NCBI GenBank assembly: GCA_026705605.1
Contig: JAPPAK010000007.1
Location: forward strand, 1-64,000
Direction of reading: 5' to 3'
DNA from: Chloroflexota bacterium
GTDB lineage: Bacteria > Chloroflexota > Dehalococcoidia > Tepidiformales > Tepidiformaceae
Length of the DNA: 64,000 bases
How positions within the stretch are numbered: position 1 is the stretch's first letter; each line of letters begins with the position of its first letter. This document shows positions 1,107 to 22,654 of this stretch, in pieces. The notes beneath the pieces were generated by a model. That model was not told the origin of the DNA, searched no databases, and saw nothing but the letters and a program-made list of their open reading frames with translations. The position numbers and the translations under genes are program-made.

Positions 1107-1474
1107 CCGGGGGCGCGCACTGGCCTGGACAGCATCCCGCGGGAGCGTGGGAATGGGTGAGGTCCGGTGCTCGCTCGGGCGGAAGTCCGGGTACCGCTCC
1201 ACGGCGGCATTCCCCCTGCGCAGTCGCTGTGCCGCGGGGAGTTCGTGTGGTCCGGCGACTGCCCCGGGACGGCGATCGAGGGAGGCTGCTGGTCGCGTAT
1301 CGAGCCTGTCCCGGGAGCGGACGGACATCGCCTGACAGCCTCTCGGCACGACCCGGCGATGGGGCGCCTCGCGGGTCGGCGCGCTCACATGGCCAATCTT
1401 GCGTGTCTGACGGCCGCTGACTTAGCCTTCAGCCCCAAGTGTCGCCGTCCTGGACGCGATGCAGTGGGAATCGC
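1107..1474. other. gene-free spacer before the sterol cluster
   Basis: No reading frame here resembles a protein. The spacer contains an 8-base inverted repeat (GCAGTCGC at 1220-1227 with GCGACTGC at 1255-1262, 27-base loop). This could be an operator or a weak hairpin. I could not pick a convincing promoter pair, but the promoter of the plus-strand sterol genes most likely lies here. Confidence 0.4.
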
Positions 1475-2572
1475 ATGGGCTCACAGCCATCCTCCAACGT
1501 CTCAAACACATCGACGCCGCCCGTGTTCCTCACGGGCGCGGCGGGGCATGTGGGGGCCAATCTGGTCCGCAGGTTGCTCGATGACGGCGTGCCGGTGCGG
1601 GTGCTGCTGAGAGCGGAGGACGACAACGAAGCCCTGGAAGGGCTCGATGTTGAGCGGGCCTACGGCGACATTCGAGACCTGGACGCCACCAGGGAAGTCC
1701 TCGCGGGTTGCCGTGGCGTGTATCACGTCGCGGCCCTCGTCTCGACAATCGACGGGAACGACGCCCATCGGCGGGACATCTTCGAAAGCAACGTACTCGG
1801 CACACGCAACGTGCTCCGGGCGGCGCGGGAGGTGGAGGCCGGACGGGTGGTGGTCACAGGTTCCTTTAGCGCCGTTGGCTACGACCTGGACGACCCGTCT
1901 GCTCCGACCAGGGAATCCATGCCCTTCTATCCGATGGAACGCACGATGCCCTACGAGCGCAGCAAGGCGATGGTGGAGAGCGAGTGCTGGCATGCTGCGG
2001 CGACTGGTCAGGATGTCGTGGTGGCCACCTGCTGCGCGGTCGTCGGTGGCAACGACTTCCTGCCCTCGCGAGTGGGGCGAACGTTGTGCGACTTCGCCAA
2101 CCGCAAGCTCTTCGCCTACGTCGATGGGGGATTCGAGTTCGTGGCGGCCCAGGACATCGTGCAGGGGCACCTGTTGTGCATGGAGCGGGGGCGTTCGGGA
2201 GAAAAGTACATCTTCAGCACCGAGTTCAAGACCATCTCCGACCTCCTGGATCTGTTCCAGGAGGTTTCAGGCATTCAGCGACCGCGCCGGCAGGTACCCC
2301 TCCGCTTGATGCTCGCCTTCTCGGAAGTGGCGAGCTATGCCCTGAGCCGGCTGCATCCGAGCTACCCCCAGCGCTTCACGCCCGGCGCGATCCGCCTGTT
2401 GCAGCAACGCCGTCACGCCGACACCACCAAGGCGAGGGAGGAACTCGGCTTCCAGCCGACGACCATCCGCGCCGCGATTCAGGATGCCTACGCGTTTCAC
2501 TACCATCAGCGCAACGCGGTCACCAACCCCCGCGCGAAGCGACCGGAACTGCCTGCGACGGCAGGAGAGTGA
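1475..2572 (+). CDS. NAD(P)-dependent SDR of the 3-beta-hydroxysteroid dehydrogenase/epimerase type, SdmB-like (sterol C-4 demethylation)
   Basis: This is an extended short-chain dehydrogenase of 365 residues. The N-terminal Rossmann motif is TGAAGHVG (residues 20-27), and the catalytic YxxxK pair is in PYERSKAMVE. The nearest general families are the NSDHL/ERG26 3-beta-HSDs and the HpnA-like epimerases. In bacterial sterol makers such as Methylococcus, SdmB, an SDR, works with the Rieske oxygenase SdmA to remove C-4 methyls. Here the SDR lies 45 bases upstream of exactly such a Rieske gene, so a C-4 decarboxylating dehydrogenase role is the best inference. The ATG at 1475 is preferred over a GTG at 1439, because the extra 12 residues are unlike the family and the fold begins shortly after residue 15. 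Sequence alone does not exclude a sugar epimerase. Confidence 0.75.
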   Translation: MGSQPSSNVSNTSTPPVFLTGAAGHVGANLVRRLLDDGVPVRVLLRAEDDNEALEGLDVERAYGDIRDLDATREVLAGCRGVYHVAALVSTIDGNDAHRRDIFESNVLGTRNVLRAAREVEAGRVVVTGSFSAVGYDLDDPSAPTRESMPFYPMERTMPYERSKAMVESECWHAAATGQDVVVATCCAVVGGNDFLPSRVGRTLCDFANRKLFAYVDGGFEFVAAQDIVQGHLLCMERGRSGEKYIFSTEFKTISDLLDLFQEVSGIQRPRRQVPLRLMLAFSEVASYALSRLHPSYPQRFTPGAIRLLQQRRHADTTKAREELGFQPTTIRAAIQDAYAFHYHQRNAVTNPRAKRPELPATAGE

Positions 2573-2617: not shown

Positions 2618-3727
2618 ATGAGCGTCGACGTGGACACCGCGCCGGCCGGCCCGCCAGCTCTCGAGGATGCCCGCAACCTGCGTCAGCGGGCGCGCGCCGT
2701 GGGCATGAACCCGGACTACTGGTACGCCGTCGAGGAAGTGCGGCGGGTGAAGCCGGGCACGGTGACCGAGGTCGTGTTCTGGAAGCAGTCCATCGCGCTG
2801 TACCGGTCCGAAGACGGCTCATTTCACGCGATCGAGAATCGTTGCCTGCACCGCCAGATCAAGCTCTCCCTCGGCCAGGTCGACGGCTGCCGGCTCGTCT
2901 GCGGCTACCACGGCTGGGAGTACGACGAGGACGGGCGGGTCTCGGAGATCCCCGACTTGTTTGGGCGGCAAGAGGTGCCGAACCTGTCGGTCCGGACGTA
3001 TCCCGTCCAGGTCCGCTACGGGCTGGTCTGGATCTTCCCGGGAGACCCGGCACTTGCCGAAGAGCGTCAGATCCCGGAAATCCCCGAGCTCGAAGGGTCC
3101 TCGCGGTGGGCCTGCGTGCCGCTGGTTTTCGACCTTCAGGCCCATCACTCGATCATCATCGACAACGTGAGCGACTTCTCGCACGCCTATCTGCACCGTC
3201 GCTATCGACCGTTCGACGGCGCCACGCTCACGCGCCACGAGACCGTCGGCGACAACGTGCACCTCGCCTATGAGACGAGAGTCGGCCGCGGGCGCATCTC
3301 CGGGTTGTTCGTCGACCATGCGCGATTGAATACCAACCACATGGAGCTCTGCTACGAATATCCCTACCAACGGTCGAACACCGATGACGAAATCAAGCAC
3401 TGGCTCTTCGTGCTGCCGATCGATGAGCGGACGACGCGGACGTTTTTCCTCTTCTACTTCAGGTCGCTCAAGCTGCCCCTGATCCCCGTCCGCATCCCTC
3501 GCCTGGCCATGACCACCGTCCTGCGGATCGCCAACCGCATGCTGATAGGCCCGTTGCTCTCGCAGGACCGCGTGGCGGTCGAGGCGGAGCAGAAGGGCTA
3601 CGAGACCAATTGGGACGCTCCTCCGATCGAGGTCAATCCAGTCGTGCGGTCCTTCCAACAGGTGACGGTGCGCAAGTGGCAGGAACACCTGGATGGCGAG
3701 GGGGCGAAGAGTCTGAACGGTGCATGA
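2618..3727 (+). CDS. Rieske non-heme iron oxygenase, SdmA-like (sterol C-4 demethylase candidate)
   Basis: The protein has 369 residues. The N-terminal Rieske [2Fe-2S] site is CLH (Cys76, His78) with CGYH (Cys95, His98). The mononuclear iron site is DFSHAYLH (Asp186, His189, His193) in the C-terminal catalytic domain. This is the layout of single-component ring-hydroxylating-type oxygenases, including bacterial SdmA, which oxidises the sterol C-4 methyl group. No ferredoxin or reductase is encoded nearby, so electrons must come from elsewhere. The stop overlaps the next gene's start by 8 bases, indicating translational coupling with the sterol reductase gene. The exact substrate is inferred from its neighbours, not from residues. 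Confidence 0.82.
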   Translation: MSVDVDTAPAGPPALEDARNLRQRARAVGMNPDYWYAVEEVRRVKPGTVTEVVFWKQSIALYRSEDGSFHAIENRCLHRQIKLSLGQVDGCRLVCGYHGWEYDEDGRVSEIPDLFGRQEVPNLSVRTYPVQVRYGLVWIFPGDPALAEERQIPEIPELEGSSRWACVPLVFDLQAHHSIIIDNVSDFSHAYLHRRYRPFDGATLTRHETVGDNVHLAYETRVGRGRISGLFVDHARLNTNHMELCYEYPYQRSNTDDEIKHWLFVLPIDERTTRTFFLFYFRSLKLPLIPVRIPRLAMTTVLRIANRMLIGPLLSQDRVAVEAEQKGYETNWDAPPIEVNPVVRSFQQVTVRKWQEHLDGEGAKSLNGA

Positions 3728-4817
3728 CCTGCCGTCGGCCTGGACGGAGTTCTCAGGCCTGAGCCTCATCGAAGCAGCCGCAATCTTCCTGGTGTTCGTC
3801 GGCATCCTGCTGCTGGGTTCGATGTGGGTGCCGGGTCGGAAGGTGGCCGCCGGCCCCGATCTCGAGGGAGTGTCGCGCACCTACACCCTCAACGGGCTGG
3901 CGCTGTTCGTGATCGTCATCCTGCTGGCGGTGCTCGGCGAGATCCTCGACGTGATTTCACTGTCGGTGCTGTACTCGCACTTCGCCGAACTGTTCATCGT
4001 GGCGAACGTCTTCGCCTTCGCGCTCTCAGTCTGGTTGTACTGGCGCGCGGCACGCGGGCAAAGCGAATCGCCGGGGTTCTTGCGGGGAGTGTTCTTTGGC
4101 CGCCAGCTCAACCCGACCTGGTTTGGGGTCGACCTGAAGCTGTTCAGCTACCGACCTTCCCTGATAGCTCTGGCGCTCTTCAATGTGTCGTTCGCAGTTG
4201 TGCAATACGACACGTACGGCGAGCTCACCCTGCAGATGATCCTCTACCAGTCCTTCACGTTCCTGTACGTCGTGAATTACTTCCAGTTTGAAGGTGGAAT
4301 GATCTACACCTGGGACATCGTGTCCGAGCGTTTTGGGTGGATGTTGGCGTGGGGTGACTACGTGCTGGTGCCATTCTTCTATTGCCTGCCGGGCTGGTGG
4401 CTGGTGCATCAAACGGATTCGCTCCCTGCCATTGCAGCAGTGGCGCTCTGCTTGCTGTTTGTAGTCGGATTCTGCGTGTTCCGCGGCGCGAACCAACAGA
4501 AGCACCGGTTCAAGCAGAACGCGAAGACTTCGATCTGGGGACGGCCGGCCGAGTCCCTGGACGGGCGACTCCTGGTATCCGGATTCTGGGGCGTGGGGCG
4601 CCACTTGAACTATTCGGGCGAGATCTGCGTGTACTTCGCCTTCGCACTCACGACCGGGTTCTCGTCCTGGATCCCGTTTCTCCTGCCCGTGTGGCTGACG
4701 GCTCTGCTGTGGCATCGATCGACACGCGACGACCGCCGCTGCCGCATCAAGTATGGGGACCTGTGGGACCGCTACAGGCAGCGGGTGCCCTACGCATTGA
4801 TACCTCGTGTCTATTAG
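3720..4817 (+). CDS. sterol C-14(15) reductase, ERG24/DHCR7 family
   Basis: This polytopic membrane protein of 365 residues has about nine or ten hydrophobic segments. It carries the two family signatures near the C-terminus: LLVSGFWGVGRHLNYSGE (about residues 284-301) and the block RDDRRCRIKYGDLWDRY followed by RVPYALIPRVY at the very end. Eukaryotic members reduce the 14,15, 7,8 or 24(28) double bond of sterols with NADPH. Directly before a CYP51-type demethylase, which leaves a delta-14 double bond, the C-14 reductase role is the most likely. The start is a GTG that overlaps the Rieske gene. Base and codon use match the neighbours. The specific double bond reduced cannot be proven from sequence. 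Confidence 0.85.
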   Translation: MHDLPSAWTEFSGLSLIEAAAIFLVFVGILLLGSMWVPGRKVAAGPDLEGVSRTYTLNGLALFVIVILLAVLGEILDVISLSVLYSHFAELFIVANVFAFALSVWLYWRAARGQSESPGFLRGVFFGRQLNPTWFGVDLKLFSYRPSLIALALFNVSFAVVQYDTYGELTLQMILYQSFTFLYVVNYFQFEGGMIYTWDIVSERFGWMLAWGDYVLVPFFYCLPGWWLVHQTDSLPAIAAVALCLLFVVGFCVFRGANQQKHRFKQNAKTSIWGRPAESLDGRLLVSGFWGVGRHLNYSGEICVYFAFALTTGFSSWIPFLLPVWLTALLWHRSTRDDRRCRIKYGDLWDRYRQRVPYALIPRVY

Positions 4818-4843: not shown

Positions 4844-6232
4844 GTGGCTCAATCGCGTAACGGTCTGGCGACTTCACAGGAGGATCGGGCGGTTCCCGAA
4901 CTTGGCGGAGGGGCGCCGCTGATAGGCCACCTGCGAGACTTCCAGCGCGACCCGGCGGCGATGTTGAGCCGGGGCTGGCGGCAATTGGGCGACCTGTTTC
5001 GATTTCGGCTGGGTCCCCGCCAGTTCGTGCTCTTCACCGGTCCCGAAGCGCACGACGCCTTCTTCAGCGCGCCCGACGACCAACTGGACGCCAAGTCCGT
5101 CTATCAGTTCACGGTCCCGATCTTCGGTCGAGGTGTGGCCTACGACGTCGCCCCCGAGGTGATGGCCGAACAACTCGGCTTTCTCTATCCGGCGCTACAG
5201 GACGCTGCCATGCAGAGGTCCGTCCGCTTCATGTTCGAGGAGACGTCGCGGTTCGCAGACTCCCTCGGCGAGGAGGGTGAGCTCGATCTGCCGGCCGCGA
5301 TGAACGAACTGACCGTCAAGATCGCCAGCCGCAGTCTCCTCGGACAGGAGGTCCGGGATCAGGTGGACGAGGGATTCGCCGATGCCTATCACGATCTGCA
5401 GAAGGGCATCAACACGCTCGGCTTCTTTCTTCCCAGGCTCCCCACCCCGGCGCATCGGAGCCGGGACCGAGCACGCAAGCACGTGGCGGAGCTCTTCAGC
5501 GGGATCATGGCGGCGCGCCGGCAGGCCGGGGTCCGTCCCGAGGACTTCATGCAGTCGCTCATGGACGCCAGCTACGGTGATGGCCGCACCCTGGACGACG
5601 ACGAGATCACGGGGATTCTCCTGACGGTGTTGTTTGCGGGGCAACACACCAGCGGGGTGCTGGCAACCTGGACCGGTCTGGAACTCCTGGGAGCGACGTC
5701 GTACCTGGCGCGGATACGGGAGGAAACGCAGGCCATCTACGGCGAGACGGGGAGCATGGACCTTGAGGGCCTGAAGCAACAGGTGACCATGGAAAACGCC
5801 GTCCGTGAGGGCGAGCGGCTTCACCCGCCGCTGATCCTGTTGATCCGCAAGGTGCTCAAGCCGATGCGGTACGGAGAGTACGTGGTGCCCGAGGGCTCCC
5901 TTGCGATGGTGTCGCCGGCGGTTTCTCACCGGCTGCCGCATCTGTTCGCCGACCCGGACCGCTTCAACCCGGATCGCTTCGCCCCGCCCGCTCGCGAGGA
6001 CAGGCAGCATCACTACGCCCTGATCGGTTTCGGTGGCGGCAACCACCGCTGCATGGGCAAGCACTTCGCCTATCTGCAGGTCCAGGCAATCTGGACCGTG
6101 CTGCTCGATCGGTTCGACCTGAGTCTGGAGACCGACGTGCCAGCTCCCAACTACGGCAGCTGGGTAACGGGTCCGGTAACACCCTGCAAGGTCCGTTACA
6201 GGCGCCGTGCAGAGGGAAGCGTCTTCCGGTGA
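4844..6232 (+). CDS. cyp51: cytochrome P450 of the CYP51 (sterol 14-alpha-demethylase) type
   Basis: The P450 has 462 residues. CYP51-like landmarks are visible: YQFTVPIFGRGVAYD in the B-C region (residues 87-101, with the Y/F-rich substrate-recognition motif), I-helix AGQHTSG (265-271, close to the classic AGQHTSS), ExxR in EGERLHPP, and heme loop FGGGNHRCMG with Cys403. Such enzymes remove the 14-alpha-methyl group of lanosterol or related sterols in three oxidations. The reading frame is open further upstream, but the GTG at 4844, preceded by an AGAAGG ribosome site, gives the proper N-terminus; anything earlier overlaps the reductase gene. The stop overlaps the next start (GTGA), so it is coupled to the epoxidase-cyclase. 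No ferredoxin gene is adjacent. Confidence 0.9.
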   Translation: MAQSRNGLATSQEDRAVPELGGGAPLIGHLRDFQRDPAAMLSRGWRQLGDLFRFRLGPRQFVLFTGPEAHDAFFSAPDDQLDAKSVYQFTVPIFGRGVAYDVAPEVMAEQLGFLYPALQDAAMQRSVRFMFEETSRFADSLGEEGELDLPAAMNELTVKIASRSLLGQEVRDQVDEGFADAYHDLQKGINTLGFFLPRLPTPAHRSRDRARKHVAELFSGIMAARRQAGVRPEDFMQSLMDASYGDGRTLDDDEITGILLTVLFAGQHTSGVLATWTGLELLGATSYLARIREETQAIYGETGSMDLEGLKQQVTMENAVREGERLHPPLILLIRKVLKPMRYGEYVVPEGSLAMVSPAVSHRLPHLFADPDRFNPDRFAPPAREDRQHHYALIGFGGGNHRCMGKHFAYLQVQAIWTVLLDRFDLSLETDVPAPNYGSWVTGPVTPCKVRYRRRAEGSVFR

Positions 6233-9200
6233 CCGACAGCCGAGGTGGCTCCTACGATGTAGCGATCGTCGGTGCCGGACCCGTGGGCAGCCTGTGCGCG
6301 ATTGCCCATGCCCGAAAGGGCTATCGCGTAGCGTTGTTCGAGGCGAACCCCGCGGCGTCCAAACGACTGGCGGGTGAATGGCTGCATCCTCCGGCGGCGC
6401 GAATCCTGCGTGAACTCGGGCTATCGGTTAGTGGTGATGCCCAGAGCGCCTCGGGTAAGGGGTTCGTGGTGTTCCCGGAAGACCGCGAGCACCCGATCGT
6501 GATCCCGTATTCGAACGGAACCCACGGTCTGGTCTGCGACCACGCGACGCTCGTCTCGCGTCTGCGCGAGGCGGTAGAGAGCGAGCCCGGTATCGACTTC
6601 AGACTGCACACACGGGTGTCTGAGGTCGAAGACGGGCGGCTGTCGTACGTGCAGAACGGCGCCAGCGAATTCGTTGACGCGGAGCGGATCGTTGGCGCGG
6701 ACGGCCGCTCCTCCGTCGTCCGGCGATCGCTGGGTCTCGCGACGCGATCGAAGATGTGCTCGCGGATGGTTGGGCTCACGCTGAAGGGGGTGAGCCTGCC
6801 GATGGAGGGGTACGGGCACATCGTCTGCGGTGCGCCCGGTCCGGTGCTGATTTACCGCCTCAGCGAAGACCGTGTCCGGGCAGTCGTCGACATCCCCCTG
6901 GAGTATTCGTCCCATGAATGGAAAGGCGTACTGGCGGACTCGTTTGCACGCTGGATGCCGGAGGGGCTCCAGTCGGCGTTCATCGAAGCGAGCGCCGAGG
7001 AGCGCCTTGACGCCTCTGCCAACGCCGTAAGTCCGCGGGTCACGTACGGAACCTCACGGCGGGTGCTGATCGGCGATGCGGCCGGGCACTATCACCCACT
7101 GACGGCCACGGGGCTCACGCTTGGCTTCGGGGATGCCATGGCGCTGGCCGAGGGTGAGGAGTTTCGCGACTTCAGCAACGAGCGATTCGAGGCGACGCGC
7201 GTTCCCGAAGTGTTGGCGATGGGGCTCTACGAGGTCTTCGCCGATCAACGGGCGGAAGCGACCGCGCTCCGACAGGCGATGTACAGGCGCTGGCGCTCCA
7301 GTTCCGCCGCCTGCGACAAGACCATGGGGCTCCTCGCCTGTGAGGACAGATCTGTGAGCAGCCTGAGCCGGGAGTTCACGACAACGATCGTGTGGGCATT
7401 GAGGGCCACCGTCCCGAGATCACTCAACGGGTCGGCCTGGCGCCGGTTCCGCGAGGTGGCTCGCGGAATGGGCAATCGTCTGGGGTGGCTCTCGCTGGGG
7501 GCCTGGCACCTGTACCGGGGCAGACGGGCGGGAGGCACGGCGCCGGAGCGACCTACCCGAACGCTGGCTCGCGCGTTTCTGGCCTCCATGCCATCGGCGT
7601 CGGGACCGGCTGGCGATGCGCTCCCGACCGAGACGGTGTCACCCGATGCAGGGACGGCGCTGGAGAGGGCCGCGACGCGCCTGCTGGACCTCCAGGCCGA
7701 GGATGGCAGCTGGGAAGGGGAGATGGTCTGGTGCCCCATGCTCACGGCGCAGTGGGTACTGCTGCACCACATCCTCGGGCGGCCGATCGACGACGGTCGG
7801 CGCCAGCGCGTGCTGCGTTACTTCGAGCAGTCCCGCCTGCCGGAAGGGGTGTGGGGTCTGCACGATCACTCGGCGCCCCATCTGTTCGTGACCACGCTGG
7901 TGTACATCGCGTCACGGCTGCTCGGCGTCGAACGGGACGATCAACTGATCGAACCGGCGCGGCGATTCCTGCAGGCGGAGGGGGTGCAGAACATCCCCAG
8001 CTGGGGAAAGTTCTGGCTGGCGCTCCTCAATCTCTACGACTGGACCGGGCTACACCCCATTCTCCCGGAACTGTGGAGCTTGCCCCGGCGCCTTCCGTTG
8101 CATCCCTCGAACTGGTACTGCCACACGCGGCTTATCTACATGGCCATGGCCGCGATCTACGCGGACCGGTTCCAGGCTCCCGTGACACCTACGATCTCGT
8201 CCTTGCGCGACGAGCTGTTCCCCCAGGGGTTCGGGAACGTCGACTTTCCCGCGAGTCGCAACCGGTTGCGCGAGGCTGACCTCTTCGCGAGACCGACCGT
8301 GTGGCTACGAGCCGGTTACCGAGGCGCGCAGCTGCTCGAGCGATTCCATGGCAAGCGCCTGCGCGCCAGGTCGGTGGACGCGCTCATCAGCCAGATCAAG
8401 TGGGAGCTGAACACGACAGATCACACGAGCATCTCCCCCGTCAGCGGCCTGCTGAACATCCTTGCCCTGTGGCTCCGCGATCCCGACGACCCCGACTGCC
8501 AGCGAGCGCTCGAGCAGCTCGACCTCTGGTTCTGGGAAGACGAGGAGCAGGGGGCGCGGATGACCGGAGCGAGAAGCGCCTCCTGGGACACCGGATTCGC
8601 ACTCCAGGCACTCTCCACCGCGCCCCGACTCGGCGGAGTGCCGGACGCGCTTCAGCGCGGATCCGCCTTCCTGCGCACACAGCAGATCGAGGACAGCTTC
8701 CCCGGATTCCGCGAGGCGTACCGGAACGACCCCCAGGGAGGCTGGTGTTTCGCGGGCAAGTGGCACGGCTGGCCGGTGACGGACTGTACCGCGGAAGCCG
8801 TGCTCGGGCTCATCGCCGTGGATCGCACGGCCGTACCCGAGACGGCCCTCCGCGATGCGGTTCGTTTCATGCTGCGTGGCCAGAATCGCGATGGCGGATT
8901 CGGCAGCTACGAGGCCCGGCGCACCGTGTTCGATCTCGAACGATTCAACCCCGCCGAGATGTTTGGCGAATCGATGACGGAGCATTCGTTCGTCGAATGC
9001 ACCGCCTCCTGCATGGCAGCGCTCGCCGCTTGCAGGGAGCACTTCCCGGAGGTCTTCGATGGACCTGCGGAGCGCGCCCTGTCGCAGGCAGACGTGTGGC
9101 TTCGCCACAATCAGGAACGCGATGGATCGTGGCGTGGCGTCTGGGGCGTTCAGTTCATTTACGGCACGTTGTTCGGGATACGAGGCCTGATTGCCGGCGG

Positions 9201-9576
9201 AGCGGGGCCGAACGATCCGGCCCTACGTTCGGCCTGCCAGTGGCTCCTGGATCGCCAGCGCGAAGACGGCGGATGGGGCGAGCATCCTGGTGGCTGCCTG
9301 ACCGGGCGCTACGTCGCACATGAGGAGAGCCAGGTCATCCACACCGCCTGGGCGTTGATTGCCCTTCTCGAGGCGGGGCATTCGAACTGGACCGCCATTT
9401 CGTGGGGCGTCCGCTTCCTGGTGGACGCGCAGGGGGAGGATGGAACGTGGCCCAGGCAAGACATGGCCGGGGTGTTTTTCCGGACGGCGCTCCTGGATTA
9501 CGTCCTGTATCGCCAGTACTTCCCGCTGCACGCGCTCGGGCTCTATGAAGAGCGACGCAAGACCCGCGGCAGCTGA
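6229..9576 (+). CDS. fused squalene epoxidase-oxidosqualene cyclase (bifunctional)
   Basis: One uninterrupted frame encodes 1115 residues with two enzymes. Residues about 8-440 are an FAD monooxygenase of the squalene epoxidase type: GAGPVG at 15-20, VGADGRSS (DG motif), and IGDAAGHYHPLTATGL with Asp283 (GD motif; HPLT resembles the epoxidase signature). After a short linker, residues about 470-1110 form a triterpene cyclase with oxidosqualene-type catalytic motif DCTAE (852-856), IPSWGKFWLALLNLYDW, WDTGFALQAL and several QW repeats (QAEDGSW, QNRDGGF, NQERDGSW, QREDGGWG). DCTAE, rather than the DxDD of squalene-hopene cyclases, points to epoxide-initiated cyclisation. The fusion would pass 2,3-oxidosqualene from one site to the other. 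Epoxidation needs O2 and an NADPH reductase encoded elsewhere. The GTG start is coupled to cyp51. Confidence 0.93.
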   Translation: MTDSRGGSYDVAIVGAGPVGSLCAIAHARKGYRVALFEANPAASKRLAGEWLHPPAARILRELGLSVSGDAQSASGKGFVVFPEDREHPIVIPYSNGTHGLVCDHATLVSRLREAVESEPGIDFRLHTRVSEVEDGRLSYVQNGASEFVDAERIVGADGRSSVVRRSLGLATRSKMCSRMVGLTLKGVSLPMEGYGHIVCGAPGPVLIYRLSEDRVRAVVDIPLEYSSHEWKGVLADSFARWMPEGLQSAFIEASAEERLDASANAVSPRVTYGTSRRVLIGDAAGHYHPLTATGLTLGFGDAMALAEGEEFRDFSNERFEATRVPEVLAMGLYEVFADQRAEATALRQAMYRRWRSSSAACDKTMGLLACEDRSVSSLSREFTTTIVWALRATVPRSLNGSAWRRFREVARGMGNRLGWLSLGAWHLYRGRRAGGTAPERPTRTLARAFLASMPSASGPAGDALPTETVSPDAGTALERAATRLLDLQAEDGSWEGEMVWCPMLTAQWVLLHHILGRPIDDGRRQRVLRYFEQSRLPEGVWGLHDHSAPHLFVTTLVYIASRLLGVERDDQLIEPARRFLQAEGVQNIPSWGKFWLALLNLYDWTGLHPILPELWSLPRRLPLHPSNWYCHTRLIYMAMAAIYADRFQAPVTPTISSLRDELFPQGFGNVDFPASRNRLREADLFARPTVWLRAGYRGAQLLERFHGKRLRARSVDALISQIKWELNTTDHTSISPVSGLLNILALWLRDPDDPDCQRALEQLDLWFWEDEEQGARMTGARSASWDTGFALQALSTAPRLGGVPDALQRGSAFLRTQQIEDSFPGFREAYRNDPQGGWCFAGKWHGWPVTDCTAEAVLGLIAVDRTAVPETALRDAVRFMLRGQNRDGGFGSYEARRTVFDLERFNPAEMFGESMTEHSFVECTASCMAALAACREHFPEVFDGPAERALSQADVWLRHNQERDGSWRGVWGVQFIYGTLFGIRGLIAGGAGPNDPALRSACQWLLDRQREDGGWGEHPGGCLTGRYVAHEESQVIHTAWALIALLEAGHSNWTAISWGVRFLVDAQGEDGTWPRQDMAGVFFRTALLDYVLYRQYFPLHALGLYEERRKTRGS

Positions 9577-9603: not shown

Positions 9604-10632
9604 TCAGTCTTCGGTACGGAGAGGCTTTCGGGCCAGGTAGTAGAACATCGGGGTAAACACACCGGACACACCGCCGTCGACAAGCGCATCGGCGCCCTCG
9701 TTCAACGCGCTGCTGACCTCGCGAGCGCCCTCCGGCACGATCCGCAGCTTCTCCCCAACTCTCAGGGCGAGATTCGTCAGGGCTCGGCCGGCGGGAGTGC
9801 GCGGAAGGCCGCGCAGGCTCAGATCGCCACCCTGCAACGGGCGGTACCACGGAGTCTCCGGATCGGAGTCAAGCGCGAGATCGCGGGCTTCCACCACCTC
9901 GAACCCTGCTGCCCGCAGCGCAGCGCGGATTTCCGAGGTGTGCGCGATATCGGGAAGTCCGTTCCCCTTCATGATTGACCCCTTGATCCGCCCGTGGTCT
10001 GCGTTGGACGGTTCAAAGGAGTCGGTAAGGCACCACTCGTAGCCTGCGAATTCCCCGCCTGGACGGAGGACTCGAAAGATCTCCCGGAACACGGCCGTCT
10101 TGTCCGGCGCGTGAGCGGTGGCCTCGATGTTGATCGCGGCGTCGAACTGGTCATCACCTTCCGGGATGTTCATGAAATCGCCGTGGATGAACCGGCACGG
10201 CGACTGGATATCCCTGGTGTGTTCCTGCGCGCGCTGGATCTGGTAGGCGTTCAGATTGATGCCGACGAAGCTGGCCCCGGTGTGACGGGCCAGATTTCGC
10301 ATCGGACCGCCGACCCCGCACCCCACGTCCAGCACCTGCATGCCCGCTCTCATGGAGAGTCGTTCGGCGAGAAAGTGCTCGTGCCTCAGCAGCGAAGCGT
10401 TGAGACTTTCGCCCCGTCGCCGGGGGGCAAAGTGAAATGACCGGCCCCAACCGAACTCGTAAAAGTCGGTCGCCAGGTTGTAGTAGTGGTCGACGACCGC
10501 GTGATAGCGACTCTTTCTCTGCTCCGCGCTTCCATCGAAGAGTCCTGTGTAGTCGTCGACCACGGACTTGAACTCATCAGGGTCCAGGTCTCCGATGGAG
10601 CGACGGCTCGGCCGCTTGGCGCGCTGGCTCAC
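9604..10632 (-). CDS. sterol C-24 methyltransferase, ERG6/SMT-like
   Basis: This S-adenosylmethionine methyltransferase has 342 residues and carries every hallmark of sterol methyltransferases: YEFGWG (58-63, region I), FHFAPRRRGES, SAM motif LDVGCGVGGP (101-110), EATAHAP (170-176, region II), YEWCLTD (198-204, region III), and the C-terminal sterol MT domain ending TPMFYYLARKP. It should add a methyl group to a delta-24 sterol side chain. It converges on the epoxidase-cyclase gene with 27 bases between the stops. The GTG at 10632, with GAGGG upstream, is chosen because the family's homology begins shortly after it and a longer upstream frame is low-complexity. The substrate side chain and whether one or two methyls are added are unknown. 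Confidence 0.92.
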   Translation of the reverse strand: MSQRAKRPSRRSIGDLDPDEFKSVVDDYTGLFDGSAEQRKSRYHAVVDHYYNLATDFYEFGWGRSFHFAPRRRGESLNASLLRHEHFLAERLSMRAGMQVLDVGCGVGGPMRNLARHTGASFVGINLNAYQIQRAQEHTRDIQSPCRFIHGDFMNIPEGDDQFDAAINIEATAHAPDKTAVFREIFRVLRPGGEFAGYEWCLTDSFEPSNADHGRIKGSIMKGNGLPDIAHTSEIRAALRAAGFEVVEARDLALDSDPETPWYRPLQGGDLSLRGLPRTPAGRALTNLALRVGEKLRIVPEGAREVSSALNEGADALVDGGVSGVFTPMFYYLARKPLRTED

Positions 10633-12433: not shown

Positions 12434-15400
12434 ATGTCGGCCAACGAGCAGTCCAGCGCCCTGATGCAACCCCAATCCGCCGGTGGCGAGCCCATCGCCA
12501 TCGTCGGGATGGCCTGCCGGTTCCCCGGAGCGAACGACCTCGATTCCTTCTGGAAGCTCCTCGAAGAGGGCGGGAACGCGATTACCGAGAACGTCCCCGG
12601 CGCCGTTGGGGGACGCATGGGGACGCTCTTCGGCGATGCCGAGCTCCCCAACGAAGCCTGCCGCTTCGGCGCCTTCGTCGACGACATCGAGCAGTTCGAC
12701 GCCGCATTCTTCCGCATCTCCCCCGTCGAGGCGCAACTCCTCGATCCCCAGCAGCGCATGATGCTGGAGACGACCTGGCTGGCGCTCGAGGACGCCGGAA
12801 TCGACCCGGACAAGCTGCGGGAGACGCGCACCGGCGTCTACACCGGCATCAGCAACGACGAGTACCGCATGCTCGTCCTCGATACCACCAGGCCCACCGA
12901 GGCAGCTGGCTCTCTCTACGCCCTCAGCGGCACCAACCTGAACGGCACCAGCGGCCGGGTCTCCTTCGTCCTTGGCCTGATGGGGCCCGCCAAGGCCGTC
13001 GACGCCGCCTGCGCGTCCGCGCTCGTGGCCGTGCACGATGCCGTCGCGGACCTCCAGGCGGGAAAGGCCGACCTCGCCATCGCCGGCGGCGTCCAGGCAA
13101 TCCTCAACGGTCGCATCTATGAGCTGCGTGCCGACTCGATGATGTTGTCCCCGGATGGGCAGTGCAAGGCGTTCGACGCGTCCGCCAACGGCTACGTTCG
13201 CGGCGAGGGTTGTGGAGTCGTCGTGCTCAAGCGCCTGAGCGAGGCGGAGGCCGATGGCGACCGTATCTGGGCCGTCATCCGCGGCGCCGCCGTCAACCAC
13301 GGCGGCGCCAGCGTCGGCCTTACCGTCCCCCACACACCGGCGCTGGAAGCGGTCATCAAGGCGGCCCACGCCGACGCCGGCATCCCCCCCTCCGAGGTCG
13401 ACTATCTGGAGGCGCATGGAACCGGCACCGCCGTCGGCGACCCCATCGAGATCAACGCCGCCGCCACCGTGTACAGCGAGGGCCGCGACCCCGACCACCC
13501 GCTCCTCGTCGGGTCCGTCAAGACGAACATCGGCCACCTCGAGTCGGCCGCCGGAATCGCGGGCCTGATGAAGGCCGCCCTCGTCCTGAAGCGGGGCGTG
13601 ATTCCCAGGCACCTGCACTTCAATGACCCCAACCCCAGCCTCGATTGGGAGCACCTGCCCCTCCAGGTGACGTCCGAGAGCATGGAGCTCCCGCAGCGCA
13701 ACGGCCGCCCCCGCCTGGCGGGCGTGAATTCCTTCGGCATCTCCGGCACGAACGCCCACGTCGTCGTCGAGGAGTACTGCCGTCCCGACGGCGACGGCGC
13801 GGGGGCGGAAGGCGCCGCGCAGATCGTCGCGGCGGCGCTGCCCGCCCCCCTCGCCGGACTTCCCTTGCCGGAAGAAGCGCTGGATTCCCGCCCGACGCGC
13901 CTCCTGCCGCTCTCCGCCAAGTCCGAGAGCGCCCTCCGGGACCTCGCCCGGGGCTACCTTGCATGGCTCGACGAGCGAACCGCCGACCTCGCCTCCGAAA
14001 CCGCCGCCTCCGCCCCCCTCCTGTCGGACGCGGCCTGGACGGCAGCTATCGGCCGCAGTCACTTCGACTACCGAAGGGGCGTCGCCTTTGATGACGTTGC
14101 CTCCTTGCGCGAGCGGCTCGGCGAGCTGGCCGAAGGATCCGATCCGGTGGAGCCGCGATCCGCGAGCAAAATCGCGTTCGTCTACACCGGGCAGGGGAGC
14201 CAGTGGGCTGGCATGGGCCAGGCCCTCTACGAGAGCGAGCCCGTCGCCCGGGCGGTCCTCGACCGCTGCGAGGCTGTGTTTCGCGAGGCGCGGGGCGCTT
14301 CGCTGCTGGACGTGATGTTCGGTCGGGCGGAGGGCCAGGGTGACCTCGGCGATACCGCCTGGGAACAGCCTGCCCTCTACGCACTGGAGTGCGCGCTGAC
14401 CGCCCTCTGGTCCAGCGTTGGCATCGGGCCGAGCGTCGTCGTCGGCCATAGCGTCGGCGAGATAGCGGCGGCGCAAGCGGCGGGCGTGTTCAGCCTCGAA
14501 GACGGCATGCGCTTCGCCGAGGCGCGCGGCTCGCTGCTCTCCGGGATGGAAGGCGGCGGCATGGCCGCCGTCTTCGCGCCCCCGGAGCAGGTGGCCGCGG
14601 CGGTTGAAGCGTTCAACGCCGAGTCGGACGGCGTCGGGCTGAGCTTCGCGGCCGACAATGGCGCCCACCAGGTCGTCAGTGGACGGGTTGAGGACATCGA
14701 GACCATCTCGGAACAGCTGGAAGCTCAGGAGGAGCTCCGGGTCAGGCGGCTCAACACCGCCAAAGCCTTCCACAGCGCCCTCGTCGAGCCTGTCCTGGAG
14801 GGGCTGGAGGCCTCGCTCGAAGGCGTGGAGATCCGCTCGCCCGACCTGACCGTGATCAGCAACGTTACGGGCCGGCCGGTCGACGCCGGCACGCTCCTCG
14901 ACGCCGCCTACTGGAAGCGCCACGCGCGGCAAGCGGTCGCCTTCGCCGGCGGCGTCGACTCGCTCGCCGAGCTCGGTGTCGACCTCGTCGTCGAGATAGG
15001 CCCGGACTCCGTCCTCGGCACGATGGCGACGCTTTGCTGGCCGTCCGGCAGCGCCGCCCCCGCCGTCCTCGCCAGCCTGCGGCGTCCGCCCAGGGACGGT
15101 TCATCGCCCGAGCCCGAGGCCGGTTTCGTCGACGCGGTGGCCGCCGGTTACGAGGCCGGGCTGGACATCGCCTTCGAGGGACTCTTCGCCGGAGAAGCCC
15201 GCCGGCGCATCTCCCTGCCGAGCTACCCCTTCCAGCGCGAGCTTCACTGGGTCGAGGGGACGAGGCAGCGGCGCCTCGGCGCGGGTCACCCGCTGCTGGG
15301 CGCCCGTCACGAGTCCGCCCGCGGCGAGGTCGCGTTCGAGACGGAAGTCTTCCCCTCCGATCCGGCCTGGCTGGAGGACCACCGCGTGTTCGGCCGCTAT

Positions 15401-18400
15401 GTAGCCCCGGGGGCGCTGTACGGCGCCATGGCGGCCACCGCCTCGCTCGTCGAGGAGGGCAGCAGCTCGCTCGTGATCGAGGACATGCAGCTGCACAACC
15501 CCCTCGTCTTTGCAGAGCAGAACCCAGAAGACGGCGCGCCTGAAGAAGGCCGCAGGATGCAGGTCGTGCTCGACGTTTCCGAGGGAGCGTCCGCGCGACA
15601 GGTCACCGTCTTCAGCAAGGGGACAGAGGAAGGCTGGAAGGTCCACCTCGAAGGCCGCGTGTTGCCCGGCGCCCCGATGCCGGAGGCCGGCGAGCGGATC
15701 GACCTCGGCGAGCTGAAGGCCCGTCTCTCACAGGCCGACGTGTCCGACTACTACCGCGCCAAGGCCGCGACTGGCATCAATCTCGGGCCGTTCTTCCGCA
15801 CGCTGGGAAGGGTCTGGTCCGCCCCGGGTGAGGCGCTCGGTGAGGTCACCCTCCCCGAGGCCCTTGGGCGGAACGAGTTGGACATCCACCCGCTTGTGCT
15901 CGACGGCTGCTTCCAGGTGGTCGGCGTGGCGAGAAACATGTCCGGCGCCCCCGGCGAGGCCACCTACCTGCCCTTCGGCTGGGACCGCATGTGGCTGAGC
16001 GGGCGGCTGCCCGACCGCGTCCTCTGCCACGTGGTCATGAGCGACTCCGCCCCGGACGCGGAGTCGAGCGAGGCCCCCGAGGTTCTGACCGGCGAGGTGC
16101 GCATCTACGACACGAACGGCGTCCTCCTCGGCGGGCTCGGCGGGTACACCGTCAAGCGCGCCACCCGCGCCGCCCTCCTCTCAGCCGTCGAAGGCGTGCG
16201 CGACCTGCTCTACGAGGTCACCTGGCGCGATCGCGCCCTCGAGTCGGGCATCCAGCCCGCGGACTTCTTCCCGAGCGCCGCCAGCGTCGCCGCCGCCTCG
16301 GACTCGTTCTCGGAATACCTTGCCGCTGCCGAAGTCGACCCCGACGACCGCGTTGCGCTCCTTGCCGACCTGGAACGCTGGTCGCACGCCTACGCCCTGC
16401 TGAACCTGGAAAAGCTTGGCTGGCAGCGCCGGTCGGGCGACGTCGTCGACGCAGACGAGCTGAGGGAGCGCCTCGGCGTTGTCGAGGAGCACGAACGCCT
16501 CTTCCGGCGGATGTTCGAGATGCTCGCCAGGTCCGGCGTCGTTGAGGAGAAGGACGGAAGCTTCGTCGTCGTGATCGGGGCGGACGATCCCCTGTCCGAA
16601 CAGCTACCCGCCGACCCCGAGACGTACGCCGCCGAGATGGAGGCCCGCTACTCCCATGGCCTGACCGAAGTCGGCCTGTTCAGCCGCTCCGCAGGCGCCC
16701 TCGCCGACGTGCTGCGCGGCGAGATGGACCCGTTGACGCTCCTCTTCAGCAGCGGCGAACCGACCGCCGGCGACCTCTACCTGAAGGCGCCCGTCGCCCG
16801 TGCCGCCAACGGCATGCTCGCCGACGCCGTCCGGGCGATCGTCGCCGAGCTGCCCGAGGGACGGCGGCTGCGCGTGCTGGAAGTTGGCGCCGGCACCGGC
16901 TCGGCCACCGCCTCCGTCCTCCCGGAGCTGCCCGAGGGCCGGTTCGACTACGTCTACACCGACATCTCCGCCGGCTTCTTCGCGGAAGCGGAGGAGCGCT
17001 TCGGCAACGGCGGGGGGAGCATCGACTACCGCCCCCTGGACATCGAGAAGGACCCGATCCCGCAGGGCTTCGACTCGCACGGCTACGACCTCATCATCGC
17101 CTCCAACGTCCTCCATGCCACGCGCTACCTCAGCGAGACGCTGACGCACTGCCTGGACGTGCTCTCGCCGTCCGGACACCTCGTCGCCCTCGAGAACCTT
17201 CGCGGCCTGGGCTGGATGGACCTGACCTTCGGCCAACTCGACGGCTGGTGGCGGTTCGCGGACCCCTTCCGCACCGAGCACGCCCTCATGGGCCCGACGA
17301 TGTGGCGCCAGGCGCTTCGCGACGCCGGGTTCGACGAGGCCGAGGTCATCGGCGTCGGAGAAGACGCCCCGACCGAGAAGCTGGACAAGGGCGTGATCGT
17401 GGCCCGGGGACCCTCGCAGATCACCGAGCCGCCGGGCGCCTGGATCCTGTCGGCCGATCAGGGTGGCCTTGCCGAGGAGCTCGCTGCCGAGCTGACTGAA
17501 CGCAACCAGACGGTCGTGCTGGCCGCCAACGAAGCCGTCGATCCTGAGAGCCGCGAGTCCTGGGCGGCGCTCATTGCAGGCCTCCCCACGGACCTCCCCC
17601 TCAACGGTGTCGTGCACCTCCAGGCGCTTGAGGGCCACGGCGAAGAGGCGACCACCAACGAGATCGTGGAGGACGTCAAGGATGCTGGCGCGAGCGGGCT
17701 GGCGCTGGTCCAGGCGATTTCCGACTCCGACGTCATCCCCGAGAAGGGCATCTGGTTCGTCACGCGCGGAGCGCAGGTCCTCGATCGCGAGCGCGGCGGG
17801 GAGCTCGCCGGCGCCGTGTTGTGGGGGCTGGGCAAGGTGGTGGCGCTGGAAGCTCCACACCTCCAGCCGCGCATGATCGACCTCGACCCCGCCGGGACGG
17901 GCTCGCTGTCCGACCTCGTGAACGAACTCCTCCATCCCGACGAGGAGAACCACATCGCCTACCGCCTCGGACGCCGTCTCGCCGCGCGACTCGTGCGGCC
18001 CGAGGACGCGGCGCAGCGCCTCGCCCTGCCCGAAGACTCGGAGTGGGTGCTGGCCCCGGACCGCGCCGGTGTCTTCGAGCGCCCCGAGGTGAAGCAGCTT
18101 CCCGCACGCCCCCTGGAGCCGAAGGAGGTGCGCGTTGCCGTTGAGGCCTCCGGCCTCAACTTCTGGGATGTCTTCCGTTCGCTCGGCTTCATCGAGGAAG
18201 GCGACCTCGGGCGGGAGCTCTGCGGCTTCGTCGTCGACACCGGCTCCGAGGTCTCGACCGTCTCCCCCGGCGACCACGTCGTCGGACTTGGGTTCGGCGC
18301 CTTCGCGCAGGAAATGGTGACCCGCGAGGAGCTGGTGGCGCCCGCGCCCGAGGGTGTATCCGTGTCCGCGCTCGCGACCATCCCGAGCGCGTTTGTCTCG

Positions 18401-21400
18401 GCCGACCTCTCCTTCCGCTTCACCGGCCTCGAACCCGGCGAGCGCGTGCTGATCCACGCCGGTGCGGGTGGCGTCGGTCTCGCGGCCATCCAGCTTGCGC
18501 AGGCCGCCGGTGCGGAGGTGTTCGCCACCGCCAGCGCCCCCAAGCAGGACTACCTCCGCTCGCTCGGCGTCGAGCACATCTTCGACAGCCGCACCACCGA
18601 CTTCGGCGAGGAGATTCTCGAAGCCACCGGCGGCGAGGGCGTCCACGTCGTCCTCAACAGCCTCACGAGCGAGGGCTTCATCGACGCCAGCCTCGCCTGC
18701 CTGGCGAAGGGTGGCCGCTTCGTCGAGATGGCCCGCCGCGACATCCTCAGCTACGAGGAGATGGCCGCCCTCCGTCCCGACGTGCCCTACCACATCCTCG
18801 AGCTCGACGTCCTCAAGAAGACCGACCCGGCGCACGTCGGCGTCGTCCTGACCGAGCTCATGGCGCGCTTCGCAACAGGTGAGCTGAAGCCCATCATCCA
18901 TAGCCGCTGGCCGCTGGCCGAGGCGGGATCGGCGCTCGGCTTCATGCGGTCGGCCCGGCACATGGGCAAGATCGTCCTCACGGCGCCCCCCATTGTGGAC
19001 GGCCAGCTGCGGCAGGACCGCACCTACCTCGTGACCGGTGGTCTCGGCGGCATCGGCGTAGCCGTTGCCAACTGGCTCGCCGACAACGACGCCGGCGCCA
19101 TCGTGCTCAACGGCCGCCGCGACCCCGACCCTGAGGCCGTCGAGGCAATCGAGGCCCTGCGCGCCCGTGGCGTTCGCATCAAAGTCGAGCTCGCTGACGT
19201 GACTGACCCCGCCGCCATCGACGCCATGCTGGCTCGCATCGACGAGAACCTCCCGCCCCTCGGCGGCGTCATCCATAGCGTCGGCGTGCTCTCCGACGCC
19301 GCTCTCGGCAACCAGACCTGGGAGAGCTTCGAAACCGTCCTCTCGCCAAAGATCGTCGGAGCCTGGCACCTGCACCGCGCGACCATCGACCGCGACCTGC
19401 ACATGTTCCTGCTCTTCTCCAGCCGGGTCGGCGTCATGGGCAATCCGGGCCAGGCGAACCACGCCGCCGCCAACGCCTTCCTCGACCAGCTCGCAGGCCA
19501 CCGGCGCGCGCTCGGCCTGCCCGGACAGGCCATCGCCTGGGGCGCCTGGTCCGAGATCGGCGAGGCCGCGGAGCAGCGCGAGCGCATCGAACGCCAGCGC
19601 GCGTCCCGCGGCGGGCGCTGGTTCACCCCGCAGCAAGGCATCAGGGCCCTCGAACGCATCGTCCGCCAGGACGCCACCACCTCCGTCGTCATGTCGATGG
19701 ACTGGTCCGTCTTCGAGGAAGCCGTCGAGGAGCGCCCCGCCTTCCTCGAGGACATGCTGTCGTCACCGGACGACGCGGCCGGTGACTCGGCATCGTCCGA
19801 AGACGTGCTCTCGCAGCTCCGCATGGCCTCCGCTGCGGGGCACGAGGAGTTGCTCGCGTCTTTCCTCCAGCAGGAAGTGCGGGCCGTGCTCCGGCTGCCG
19901 ACGGCCCCCTCCCCGACGATCGGCTTCTTCGACCTCGGCATGGACTCGCTTATGGCGGTCGAGCTTCGGAATCGCCTCAACCGTGCCTTCGCCGGCGAGT
20001 ACGTCGCGTCCAACACCGTCGTCTTCGACTATCCCGACATCTCCAGCCTCGCGCGCCACATCGCCGAGGAACTCGGCGAACCCGGTGAGCCCCGCGAGGC
20101 CCCCTCCGCCCCCGAGCCTGCCCCACCCGAACGGCTCGTGCCTGGCCGCACCAGCGACGACGGCATCGCCGTCGTCGGCATGGCCTGCCGCTTCCCCGGC
20201 GCCGGCGATCTGGCGGCATTCTGGGAGCTTCTGGAGTCGGGCGCCGACGCCGTCACCGACGGCCGCCGGGACGCCGGTGAGTGGAGCGGCGCCGTCGGAG
20301 ACCCCGACGCGAAGGACGTCGCGAACCTCCGCGGCGGCTTCGTCGACGAGATCGACAGGTTCGATGCGCGCTTCTTCCGTATCTCCCCCATCGAAGCGCG
20401 GGCGATGGACCCCCGCCAGCGGATGATGCTCGAGATCAGCTGGGAAGCCCTCGAAGACGCCGGCTTCGCTCCGGACCAGCTTCGCGGCAGCCGCACCGGT
20501 GTCTACGCCGGCCTTGGCGGCAGCGAATACCGCGACCTGGTCGCGGCCAGCGACAAGGTCCAGAGCTACCTCGGCACCACCGGCAGCGTCACCGTCGGAC
20601 GCATCGCCTTCGTGCTGGGCCTGGAAGGCCCCGCCATGCCTATCGACCTCGCCTGCGCGTCCTCGCTGGCGGCGGTTCACCAGGCGGGCGTGGCCCTGCA
20701 GCGTGGCGAGGTCGACCTCGCGCTCGCCGGCGGCGTCAACGTCGTCCTTTCGCCCGAGGTTTCCCGCTTCATGATGGAGCTCGGGATGCTCTCGCCCACG
20801 GGCGAGTGCCGCCCCTTCGACGCCTCCGCCAACGGCTACGTCCGCGGCGAGGGCTGCGGGATGGTCGTGCTCAAGCGCCTGCGCGATGCCGAGGCGGACG
20901 GCGACCGCATCTGGGGCGTGATCCGGGGCTCCGCCGTCAACCAGAACGGCGCCAGCGCCGCCCTGACGGTCCCCAACGGACCCGCCCAGGAACGCATCAT
21001 GGCCGAGGCGCTTGCGCAGGCCAGCGTCCTGCCCTCCGAAGTCGACTACCTTGAAGCGCACGCGACGGGCTCGCAGCTCGGAGACCCGATCGAGCTGAAC
21101 GCCGCCGCCTCCGTCTACGGCAAGGGTCGCGACGCCGACCGCCCCCTGCTTGTCGGCTCCGTCAAGTCGAACATTGGCCACACCGAGTCGGCGGCTGGAA
21201 TGGCGGCTCTCATCAAGACCGTCCTCGCCATGAACCGCGGCGTCATTCCCCAGCACCTCCACTTCGACGACCCGAATCCCCACGTCGAGTGGGACGACAT
21301 GCCCCTGCGCGTCGTCTCGGAGGCGACCGACTGGCCAGACGTGTCCGGCCGCCGGCCGCTGGCGGGCGTCAACGCCTTCGGTCTCTCCGGCGCGAACGCC

Positions 21401-22654
21401 CACGTCCTCGTCGAGGGCTACGAACCACCGCTGGGAGCGTCTGAGAGCAACGGCGCTGCTCTGCCTGAAGGCAGTTCCCGGCCCGTACCCGTCACGCTTC
21501 CGGATTCGCTTGCCGCCGCCGCTGAGGAATCCCCGGAGCGCTCAGCCCGCTTCCTGCCCCTCTCGGCGAGGTCGGCGGGTTCGCTCCGCGACCTGGCGGA
21601 GCGCTACCGCTCGTGGCTCGATGGCGAGGATGGCTCCGCCTCCTCCGAAGCACTCTCCGACCTTGCCTGGACAGCCAGCACTGGCCGCGGCCACTTCCCC
21701 CACCGGGCCGGCCTCGTCTTCTCCGACGCCGCGCAGCTCCGGCAGGAGCTGGATGCAGTTGCCGCCACCTACGACGCCCCCGACCAGCCGCCACCCGAAC
21801 CCGCGACCCGCGTGGCGCTCGCGTTCAGCGCGCACGGGAGCCAGTGGTCGGGCATGGGCGAACCGCTCTATCGCAGCGAGCCGGTCGCCCGAGCGGTCCT
21901 GGACCGCTGCGACGCGCTGATGCGGGAGGCGCGAGGCGCCTCGCTGCTCGATGTCCTGTTCGGCGCGGAGCAGAAGCTGGACGACCCCGCCTGGGCACAG
22001 CCCGCCGTGTACGCGCTCGAGTGCGCCCTTACGGCGCAGTGGGCGAGCATCGGCATCCGTCCGAATGCAGTTGTCGGGAGCGGTCCCGGAGCGCTGGCGG
22101 CGGCTCAGGCTGCCGGAGCCATCAGCCTGGAGGAGGGCCTGCGGCTCGCATCGGCGTTCGGTGCTCTGGAGGCGAGTCCGGACGAGGGCGCACTTGAGGG
22201 CCTGGAAGCCGCGCTCGCCGCCGTGTCACCCGAAGCCCCGTCCGGTTCGCTGGTCAACGGCGTGACCGGCCGCGTCGTCGAGTCTGCCGACGAGCTCGGC
22301 GCGGACTACTGGCGAAGCCAAGGCCGCGACTCCGTCGAGCCTGCGGCCTGCGCCAAGGCACTTGCCCAGCTGGGCGTCGACATCGTAATTGAGGTGGGCC
22401 CCGATGCAGCCCTCGGACCGGCACTCGGCGAAGCGTGGCCCGATTCCTCCGACGCGCCCGCTGTTCTCTCGACCCTGGCGTGCCCGCCCGCCGAGGCGGA
22501 GTCGTCGGAGCCCCGTGACGGCTTCATGAACGCCGTCGCCGCCGCCTACAACGCCGGACTCGACTTCGCGTTCGCCGGGCTGTTCGCCGGTGAGGATCGC
22601 CGCCGCGTTGCCCTCCCGACCTATCCCTTCCAGCGCAAGCGCCACTGGTTCTAG
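12434..22654 (+). CDS. type I polyketide synthase: KS-AT-DH-MT-ER-KR-ACP-KS-AT(degenerate)
   Basis: This is a 3406-residue modular synthase. KS1 (about 18-450) has Cys193 in [15 protein letters not shown] and [11 protein letters not shown]1 (about 575-885) has GHSVGE with Ser673 and KAFHS, the malonyl-type motif. DH (about 950-1235) has His983 in [10 protein letters not shown] and DGCFQ. MT (about 1470-1640) has [11 protein letters not shown] (about 1870-2190) has [18 protein letters not shown] (about 2195-2390) has TGGLGGIG, but His2343 stands where the catalytic Tyr is expected (NHAAAN). The ACP has Ser2505 in GMDSL. KS2 (about 2575-3000) has Cys2741 and EAHATGS. AT2 (about 3110-3390) has GSGPGA instead of GHSxG, so its Ser is lost (Gly3217). 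The protein ends at [10 protein letters not shown], the post-AT linker. A fully reducing, methylating module is implied. No thioesterase or second ACP is visible. Confidence 0.93.

Follow-up and report, generated by a model that had tools for sequence, protein, structure and literature searches.

We examined an open reading frame in a stretch of 64,000 nucleotides from a bacterium of the Chloroflexota (assembly GCA_026705605.1, contig JAPPAK010000007.1, positions 1 to 64,000, hereafter the window) in which two enzymes of sterol biosynthesis, squalene epoxidase (SE) and oxidosqualene cyclase (OSC), are encoded as a single protein. To our knowledge, epoxidation and ring closure are performed by separate enzymes in the characterised sterol pathways. 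The frame (6229..9576, + strand) opens with GTG and runs for 1,115 codons with no internal stop, giving a product of 1,115 aa. An SE domain (residues 1-435; 6229..7533, +) is followed by a linker of about residues 436-471 (7534..7641, +), which has a short helix at 440-449 and is the least conserved part of the protein, and by an OSC domain (residues 472-1115; 7642..9573, +) with DCTAE at 852-856.

The initial annotation had recognised two sterol-pathway enzymes in this frame from motifs, all of which are present, and the frame itself, domain models, structural matches and relatives agree with it. Against Pfam, the SE half matches PF01494 (FAD_binding_3) at residues 9-307 with 80 bits and PF08491 at residues 154-390 with 91.6 bits, above the cut-off of 20.1, and the conserved SE features (GxGxxG, DG, GD...HP, Tyr94) are in place. 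The OSC half matches the SQHop_cyclase domains PF13249 (479-772) and PF13243 (783-1107). Its best NCBIfam model, TIGR03463 (2,3-oxidosqualene cyclase), scores 743 bits over 483-1105; as this lies under the curated cut-off of 851, we assign the half to the wider OSC family only. TIGR01787 (squalene/oxidosqualene cyclases) scores 501 bits, above its cut-off of 322.7. Identity as a squalene-hopene cyclase (SHC) was considered and rejected, given DCTAE in place of DxDDTA and a TIGR01507 score of 271.5 bits against a cut-off of 431.1; the SHC of the same genome, on contig C7, has DTDDTA. The best PDB matches are human squalene monooxygenase for the SE half (95 bits) and human lanosterol synthase (LSS) for the OSC half (444 bits). 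Searches with the halves and the full protein, as the initial annotation had proposed, recovered both families, and the whole fusion has 614 matches among database proteins at E<=1e-3. Among the matches listed (120 of the 614), PF08491 and PF13243 occur together in 120/120, and 117 are 1,109-1,168 aa long.

Structure prediction, likewise proposed, gave folds whose top-ranking matches are human SQLE for the SE half and human OSC for the OSC half. The AlphaFold model used here (pLDDT 87.3, pTM 0.72) is the second, replacing a first with pLDDT 73.9 and pTM 0.51. Residues 7-436 of the model align with residues 122-572 of human SQLE (6c6n/6c6r), a match to the catalytic core in both fold and length that extends through its C-terminal end, at 24% identity, whereas SQLE residues before 122 have no counterpart in the alignment and the fusion continues into OSC. 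Human LSS (1w6k) shares the fold, DCTAE and the aligned H232, W387, C533 and V453 at 36% identity by structure alignment, but its residues before 71 are replaced in the fusion by SE and linker, and the positions of its C449 and T381 hold His and Ala.

From a scan of named genomes we took the best 80 of 208 relatives, chosen as best matches to the fused query and referred to below as the named loci. In 79 of the 80, both halves lie in one frame, including three ended by a contig edge (L040, L047, L094). The sole split fusion, L079:7950-11408, is interrupted by an in-frame stop within its cyclase half. At least eight bacterial phyla are represented: Pseudomonadota (46), Chloroflexota (9), Actinomycetota (9), Nitrospirota (4), Gemmatimonadota (3), Acidobacteriota (2), Candidatus Binatota (2) and Rhodothermota (1), with no phylum assigned to four loci. 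Best segments are 56-95% identical to the window's fusion, the nearest relatives at 95% being L024 (titled Dehalococcoidia) and L025 (titled Chloroflexi). A sponge is named in two record titles (L038 Spongia_Bin9, L060 lac_sponge); on a reading of bin names only, most of the named loci would be sponge symbionts. A wider set of 98 loci contains 92 single-frame loci with both halves, seven of which repeat another locus.

Across the sampled genomes the distribution of the fusion is patchy. Counting in each sample the genome used as its centre, matches at E<=1e-60 occur in 2/301 genomes of the window's own phylum; at E<=1e-70, they occur in 3/297 genomes of the phylum of L031 (Acidobacteriota), 6/369 of the class of L066 (three fused, three with a separate OSC), 3/289 of the class of L052, 1/148 of the phylum of L032 and 3/150 of the phylum of L085 (two partial). 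A full fusion is found in 3/38 genomes of the window's own family, its own genome counted. In a genome of the same genus, G032, a frame of 762 codons (L135:6802-9090, on G032 C74) has an OSC half with 80% identity to that of the window, preceded by just ~77 residues of SE and with no sterol row nearby; this seems to be a fusion whose epoxidase half is mostly lost.

Conservation of catalytic positions extends over both halves. In the 92 single-frame loci, Y94, D283, H289, H632 and W786 are invariant (92/92), as are D852, C853, Y894, C924 and W972 in the 91 loci with a residue at the position; of the FAD-binding residues of the SE half, G15 and G20 are kept in 91/91 loci with a residue there and D158 in 91/92. 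In six comparisons of the window's fusion with loci titled Dehalococcoidia, Chloroflexi or Chloroflexota, dN/dS ranges from 0.07 to 0.19 in the SE half and from 0.13 to 0.19 in the OSC half, and both halves are under purifying selection; the linker gives 0.21-0.92 over 30 codons, too few to weigh. The gene thus encodes a real, conserved, bifunctional-looking enzyme, and we predict with high confidence that it catalyses both steps. As to the product, V850, which corresponds to V453 of LSS, occurs in 91/91 loci. Valine at this position has been tied to lanosterol rather than cycloartenol (Wei 2016), and by this rule lanosterol is the predicted product.

The genes around the fusion are consistent with such a role. 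Immediately upstream lies CYP51 (sterol 14-alpha-demethylase; 4844..6232, +, start codon inferred), for which all 18 best PDB rows are CYP51, the top at 341 bits (query 4895-6232). Its stop overlaps the GTG start of the fusion in GTGA at 6229-6232, suggesting that the two genes are translationally coupled. Further upstream on the same strand are an ERG24-type sterol C-14 reductase (3720..4817; PF01222 244 bits; delta(14)-sterol reductase 4quv 245 bits), an sdmA-like Rieske oxygenase of the 4-methylsterol monooxygenase family (2618..3727; NF052579 405 bits, under the cut-off of 600) and an sdmB-like SDR of the sterol C-4 demethylation family (1439..2572; NF052578 294 bits, also under a cut-off of 600). 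Downstream, on the opposite strand, is a sterol C-24 methyltransferase (SMT)-like gene (9604..10557, -, start inferred; the listed ORF extends to 11238), matching PF08498 Sterol_MT_C at 69.3 bits against a cut-off of 21.7. The window therefore shows the pattern of a bacterial cluster of steroid genes (CSG), with the order ERG24-CYP51-ERG7, an SMT and sdm-like genes. Of the 63 named loci whose upstream flank exceeds 5 kb, 52 keep the row sdmB-sdmA-ERG24-CYP51-fusion; the remaining 11 are four Actinomycetota, two Gemmatimonadota, three Pseudomonadota and two without an assigned phylum. An SMT-like gene was found at 39 of the 80 named loci, and 28 of these 39 genes run opposite to the fusion. The fusion is likely the way into sterols in the genomes that carry it. 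Squalene is likely supplied in the window's genome by two SQS_PSY-family (HpnC/D-like) proteins, whose genes adjoin the SHC gene on contig C7.

Taken together, we consider it highly probable that one protein, consisting of SE, a short linker and OSC, carries squalene through to lanosterol in two successive reactions, using O2 and reducing power. Two observations weigh against this reading. Firstly, the positions of T381 and C/Q449 in LSS disagree with the lanosterol set, since they hold alanine (A781 in 91/92 loci) and mostly histidine (H846 in 88/91); of the three positions, only the V/I453 rule held in bacterial cyclases (Wei 2016). Secondly, the aligned halves are separated by anything from 21 to 72 residues in the 92 loci. 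Mechanistically, squalene would move out of the membrane into the SE domain, where the flavin would epoxidise it; 2,3-oxidosqualene would remain within the same membrane leaflet until captured by the tethered OSC domain, in which cyclisation would begin with protonation of the epoxide by Asp852. The CYP51, ERG24, SdmA/SdmB and methyltransferase encoded alongside would in turn receive the lanosterol.

How the fused state arose was addressed with trees of each half. The SE tree drew on 27 of the 51 fused rows and 25 of the 45 separate ones, leaving out P0138 and P0221 (broken), L112 (very long branch) and others. Fused and separate rows interleave in it, with 11 changes of state, at least eight of them forced by well-supported branches; a larger, quick SE tree gave 12 changes, nine forced. 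Fused rows formed one clade in 0% of 200 bootstrap trees (the bootstrap not having fully settled), and a single clade of fused SE halves, as expected of a single origin, was rejected on this tree. Since the two forms interleave, joining or splitting must have happened more than once. In the OSC half, a first tree shows five changes, three forced, with the OSC-only database proteins P0242-P0244 within the fused clade; with these left out, a second tree has two changes and unites 23 fused rows from many phyla in one clade (99/100), inside which phyla are mixed with modest support. Just outside this clade, beside two deeper fused rows, fall the separate OSCs of G835 and of Planktothrix agardhii plasmid p2. 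Both one fusion followed by repeated splitting and several fusions fit these trees. The number of events is unsure, because truncated or broken fusions may be hidden among the apparently separate database proteins, as the tails of P0138 and P0221 indicate; likewise, the SE of G835 is no proof of a separate SE, its frame reaching the contig end, while its sister P0226 looks complete.

Several loci place the two functions in separate genes or separate contexts. The OSC and SE of the Planktothrix plasmid are 55% and 44% identical to the fusion's halves, and DCTAE is present, but they are two genes on opposite strands; the same locus (L133) has a squalene synthase-type gene and four P450-annotated CDSs beside transposases. 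L127 and L128 differ from the fusion in having separate genes with OSC before SE, the reverse order. A well-supported SE-only clade (P0125, P0132, P0140, P0149 and kin, many of 462 aa; 20 rows in the larger quick tree, eight in the other SE tree) is nested among the fused SE halves. L112 (G797) and L134 (a Streptomyces plasmid) contain cyclases of the OSC lineage with no DCTAE string in the frames examined.

The initial annotation had taken the fusion to imply substrate channelling, a claim that the linker does not sustain in its strict form. In 73 aligned fusions the linker spans 38-48 residues, against 42 in the window; mean pairwise identity over 73 rows is 0.42 at residues 435-455 and 0.31 at 456-475 versus 0.71-0.74 in the OSC half, and pLDDT in the model falls below 50 at residues 460-468. 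As the linker is short, variable and modelled with low confidence, any coupling of the two steps is likely to be by proximity on the membrane and not by a rigid tunnel; it would consist in a higher local substrate concentration and a fixed 1:1 ratio. Both domains may instead be active with no kinetic coupling at all, fusion ensuring only equal amounts and co-inheritance, so that one gene moves the pathway entry between species. We regard this as a serious contender, at a little under even chances. The variable separation of the halves and the low-confidence linker are in keeping with it, as are the separate SE and OSC genes of L127, L128 and the Planktothrix plasmid and the mixing of phyla in the OSC tree, albeit at modest supports (Rhodothermales beside a Gammaproteobacterium, 80/88; Bryobacterales beside Acidimicrobiia, 96/64). 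It sits less easily with the retention of the fused state in nearly all named loci across their wide range of identity, although these loci were chosen as best matches to a fused query. A further role for the fusion, shielding oxidosqualene from SHC, is not general, because an SHC above cut-off is absent from 15 of the 30 named fusion genomes examined; the other 15 have one, as do 3/3 further fused genomes and 3/3 genomes in which OSC is separate, numbers too small for a comparison.

It is also conceivable, if rather improbable, that one of the halves has decayed or does a different job, with the flavin half, for instance, epoxidising another substrate while oxidosqualene comes from another enzyme. 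SE halves do occur apart from cyclases, as the SE-only relatives in the SE tree attest, and G032 retains OSC without most of SE. L124 offers a third such case. There, a separate SE shares a genome (that of L055) with a fusion and begins where a CYP51 remnant (the last 78 residues, 64% identical) ends; as such a remnant precedes it, in the fusion's place in the row, this SE may once have been part of a sterol row. The stretch (L124:939-9919) holds the SE, of 475 aa, near an SHC, together with a joined GPP34 and cytochrome P450 protein, an APH/ecdysteroid-kinase-like gene and an MFS transporter, and is possibly a triterpenoid cluster that reuses SE. Yet the window's own genome has no PF08491 match besides the fusion, and 29 of 30 named fusion genomes tested have no second strong SE, the exception being that of L055 (78 bits). 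In all 30, the best SE match sits in a frame of 1,130-1,484 codons. Weak extra matches of 18-26.5 bits occur in 13 others of the 30, ten of which have one above the PF08491 cut-off of 20.1, a value also exceeded in E. coli and Caulobacter. The intact catalytic positions and the purifying selection on both halves speak against another job as well. Finally, an erroneous joining of two neighbouring genes by assembly or gene calling, to which the metagenome-assembled titles of nearly all source records and the in-frame stop of L079 might lend colour, is set aside as vanishingly improbable because the same single frame, open across the junction at 7.4-7.7 kb that the initial annotation had wished to see checked, recurs in assemblies of many records and phyla (79/80 named loci).

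Returning to an enzyme active in both halves, a fuller account can be offered tentatively, at roughly one chance in three: a bifunctional squalene-to-lanosterol synthase might hand its reactive intermediate from the flavin site to the cyclase site, keeping free oxidosqualene scarce, and might move across phyla as one gene within the sterol row of uncultured, mostly sponge-associated bacteria, its epoxidase half being repeatedly split off, lost or redeployed.

The initial annotation had known of no characterised fusion of this kind. In this it stands, as our literature search, which did not cover supplements, found no characterisation of the fused enzyme; the existence of the fusion is not new, however, because Brown et al. 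2023 (Nat Commun, PMC10070321) name fused SMO/OSC homologs in one methods sentence. These have the same architecture, by description only, and belong with sterol clusters of uncultured bacteria with SMT, sdmA and sdmB, several from sponges; their epoxidase part was trimmed away for the OSC tree, and the main text uses the word fused a single time. Kelly et al. 2022 (Microbiome, PMC9531527) describe CSGs in Ircinia symbionts (115/537 MAGs, 10 phyla), with horizontal transfer. The order there is that of the window, namely DFR and a hypothetical gene (here sdmB and sdmA), ERG24, CYP51 and ERG7, followed on the other strand by SMT or FDFT1, but ERG7/LSS was taken as a plain lanosterol synthase, and neither fused nor fusion occurs in the main text. 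An SE-OSC fusion goes unmentioned in the available text of PMC13277303, PMC9531527, PMC4919349 and PMC12004948.

O2-dependent epoxidation and ring closure form the entry to sterols, and a natural fusion of the two offers a ready test of whether coupling benefits them, as well as a single-gene tool for triterpenol engineering. It may also serve as a marker for bacterial sterol producers, bearing on the debate over the source of sponge sterols and sterane biomarkers (PMC10070321).

Two other features of the window deserve mention. Near the sterol genes lies a type I polyketide synthase frame (12434-22654, +; 3,406 aa) with the domain order KS-AT-DH-MT-ER-KR-ACP-KS-AT, in which no terminal ACP or TE was matched at E<=1e-8. 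At the start of contig C2, a 365-aa frame (9-1106, +) combines histidine-kinase ATPase, receiver and winged-helix output domains.
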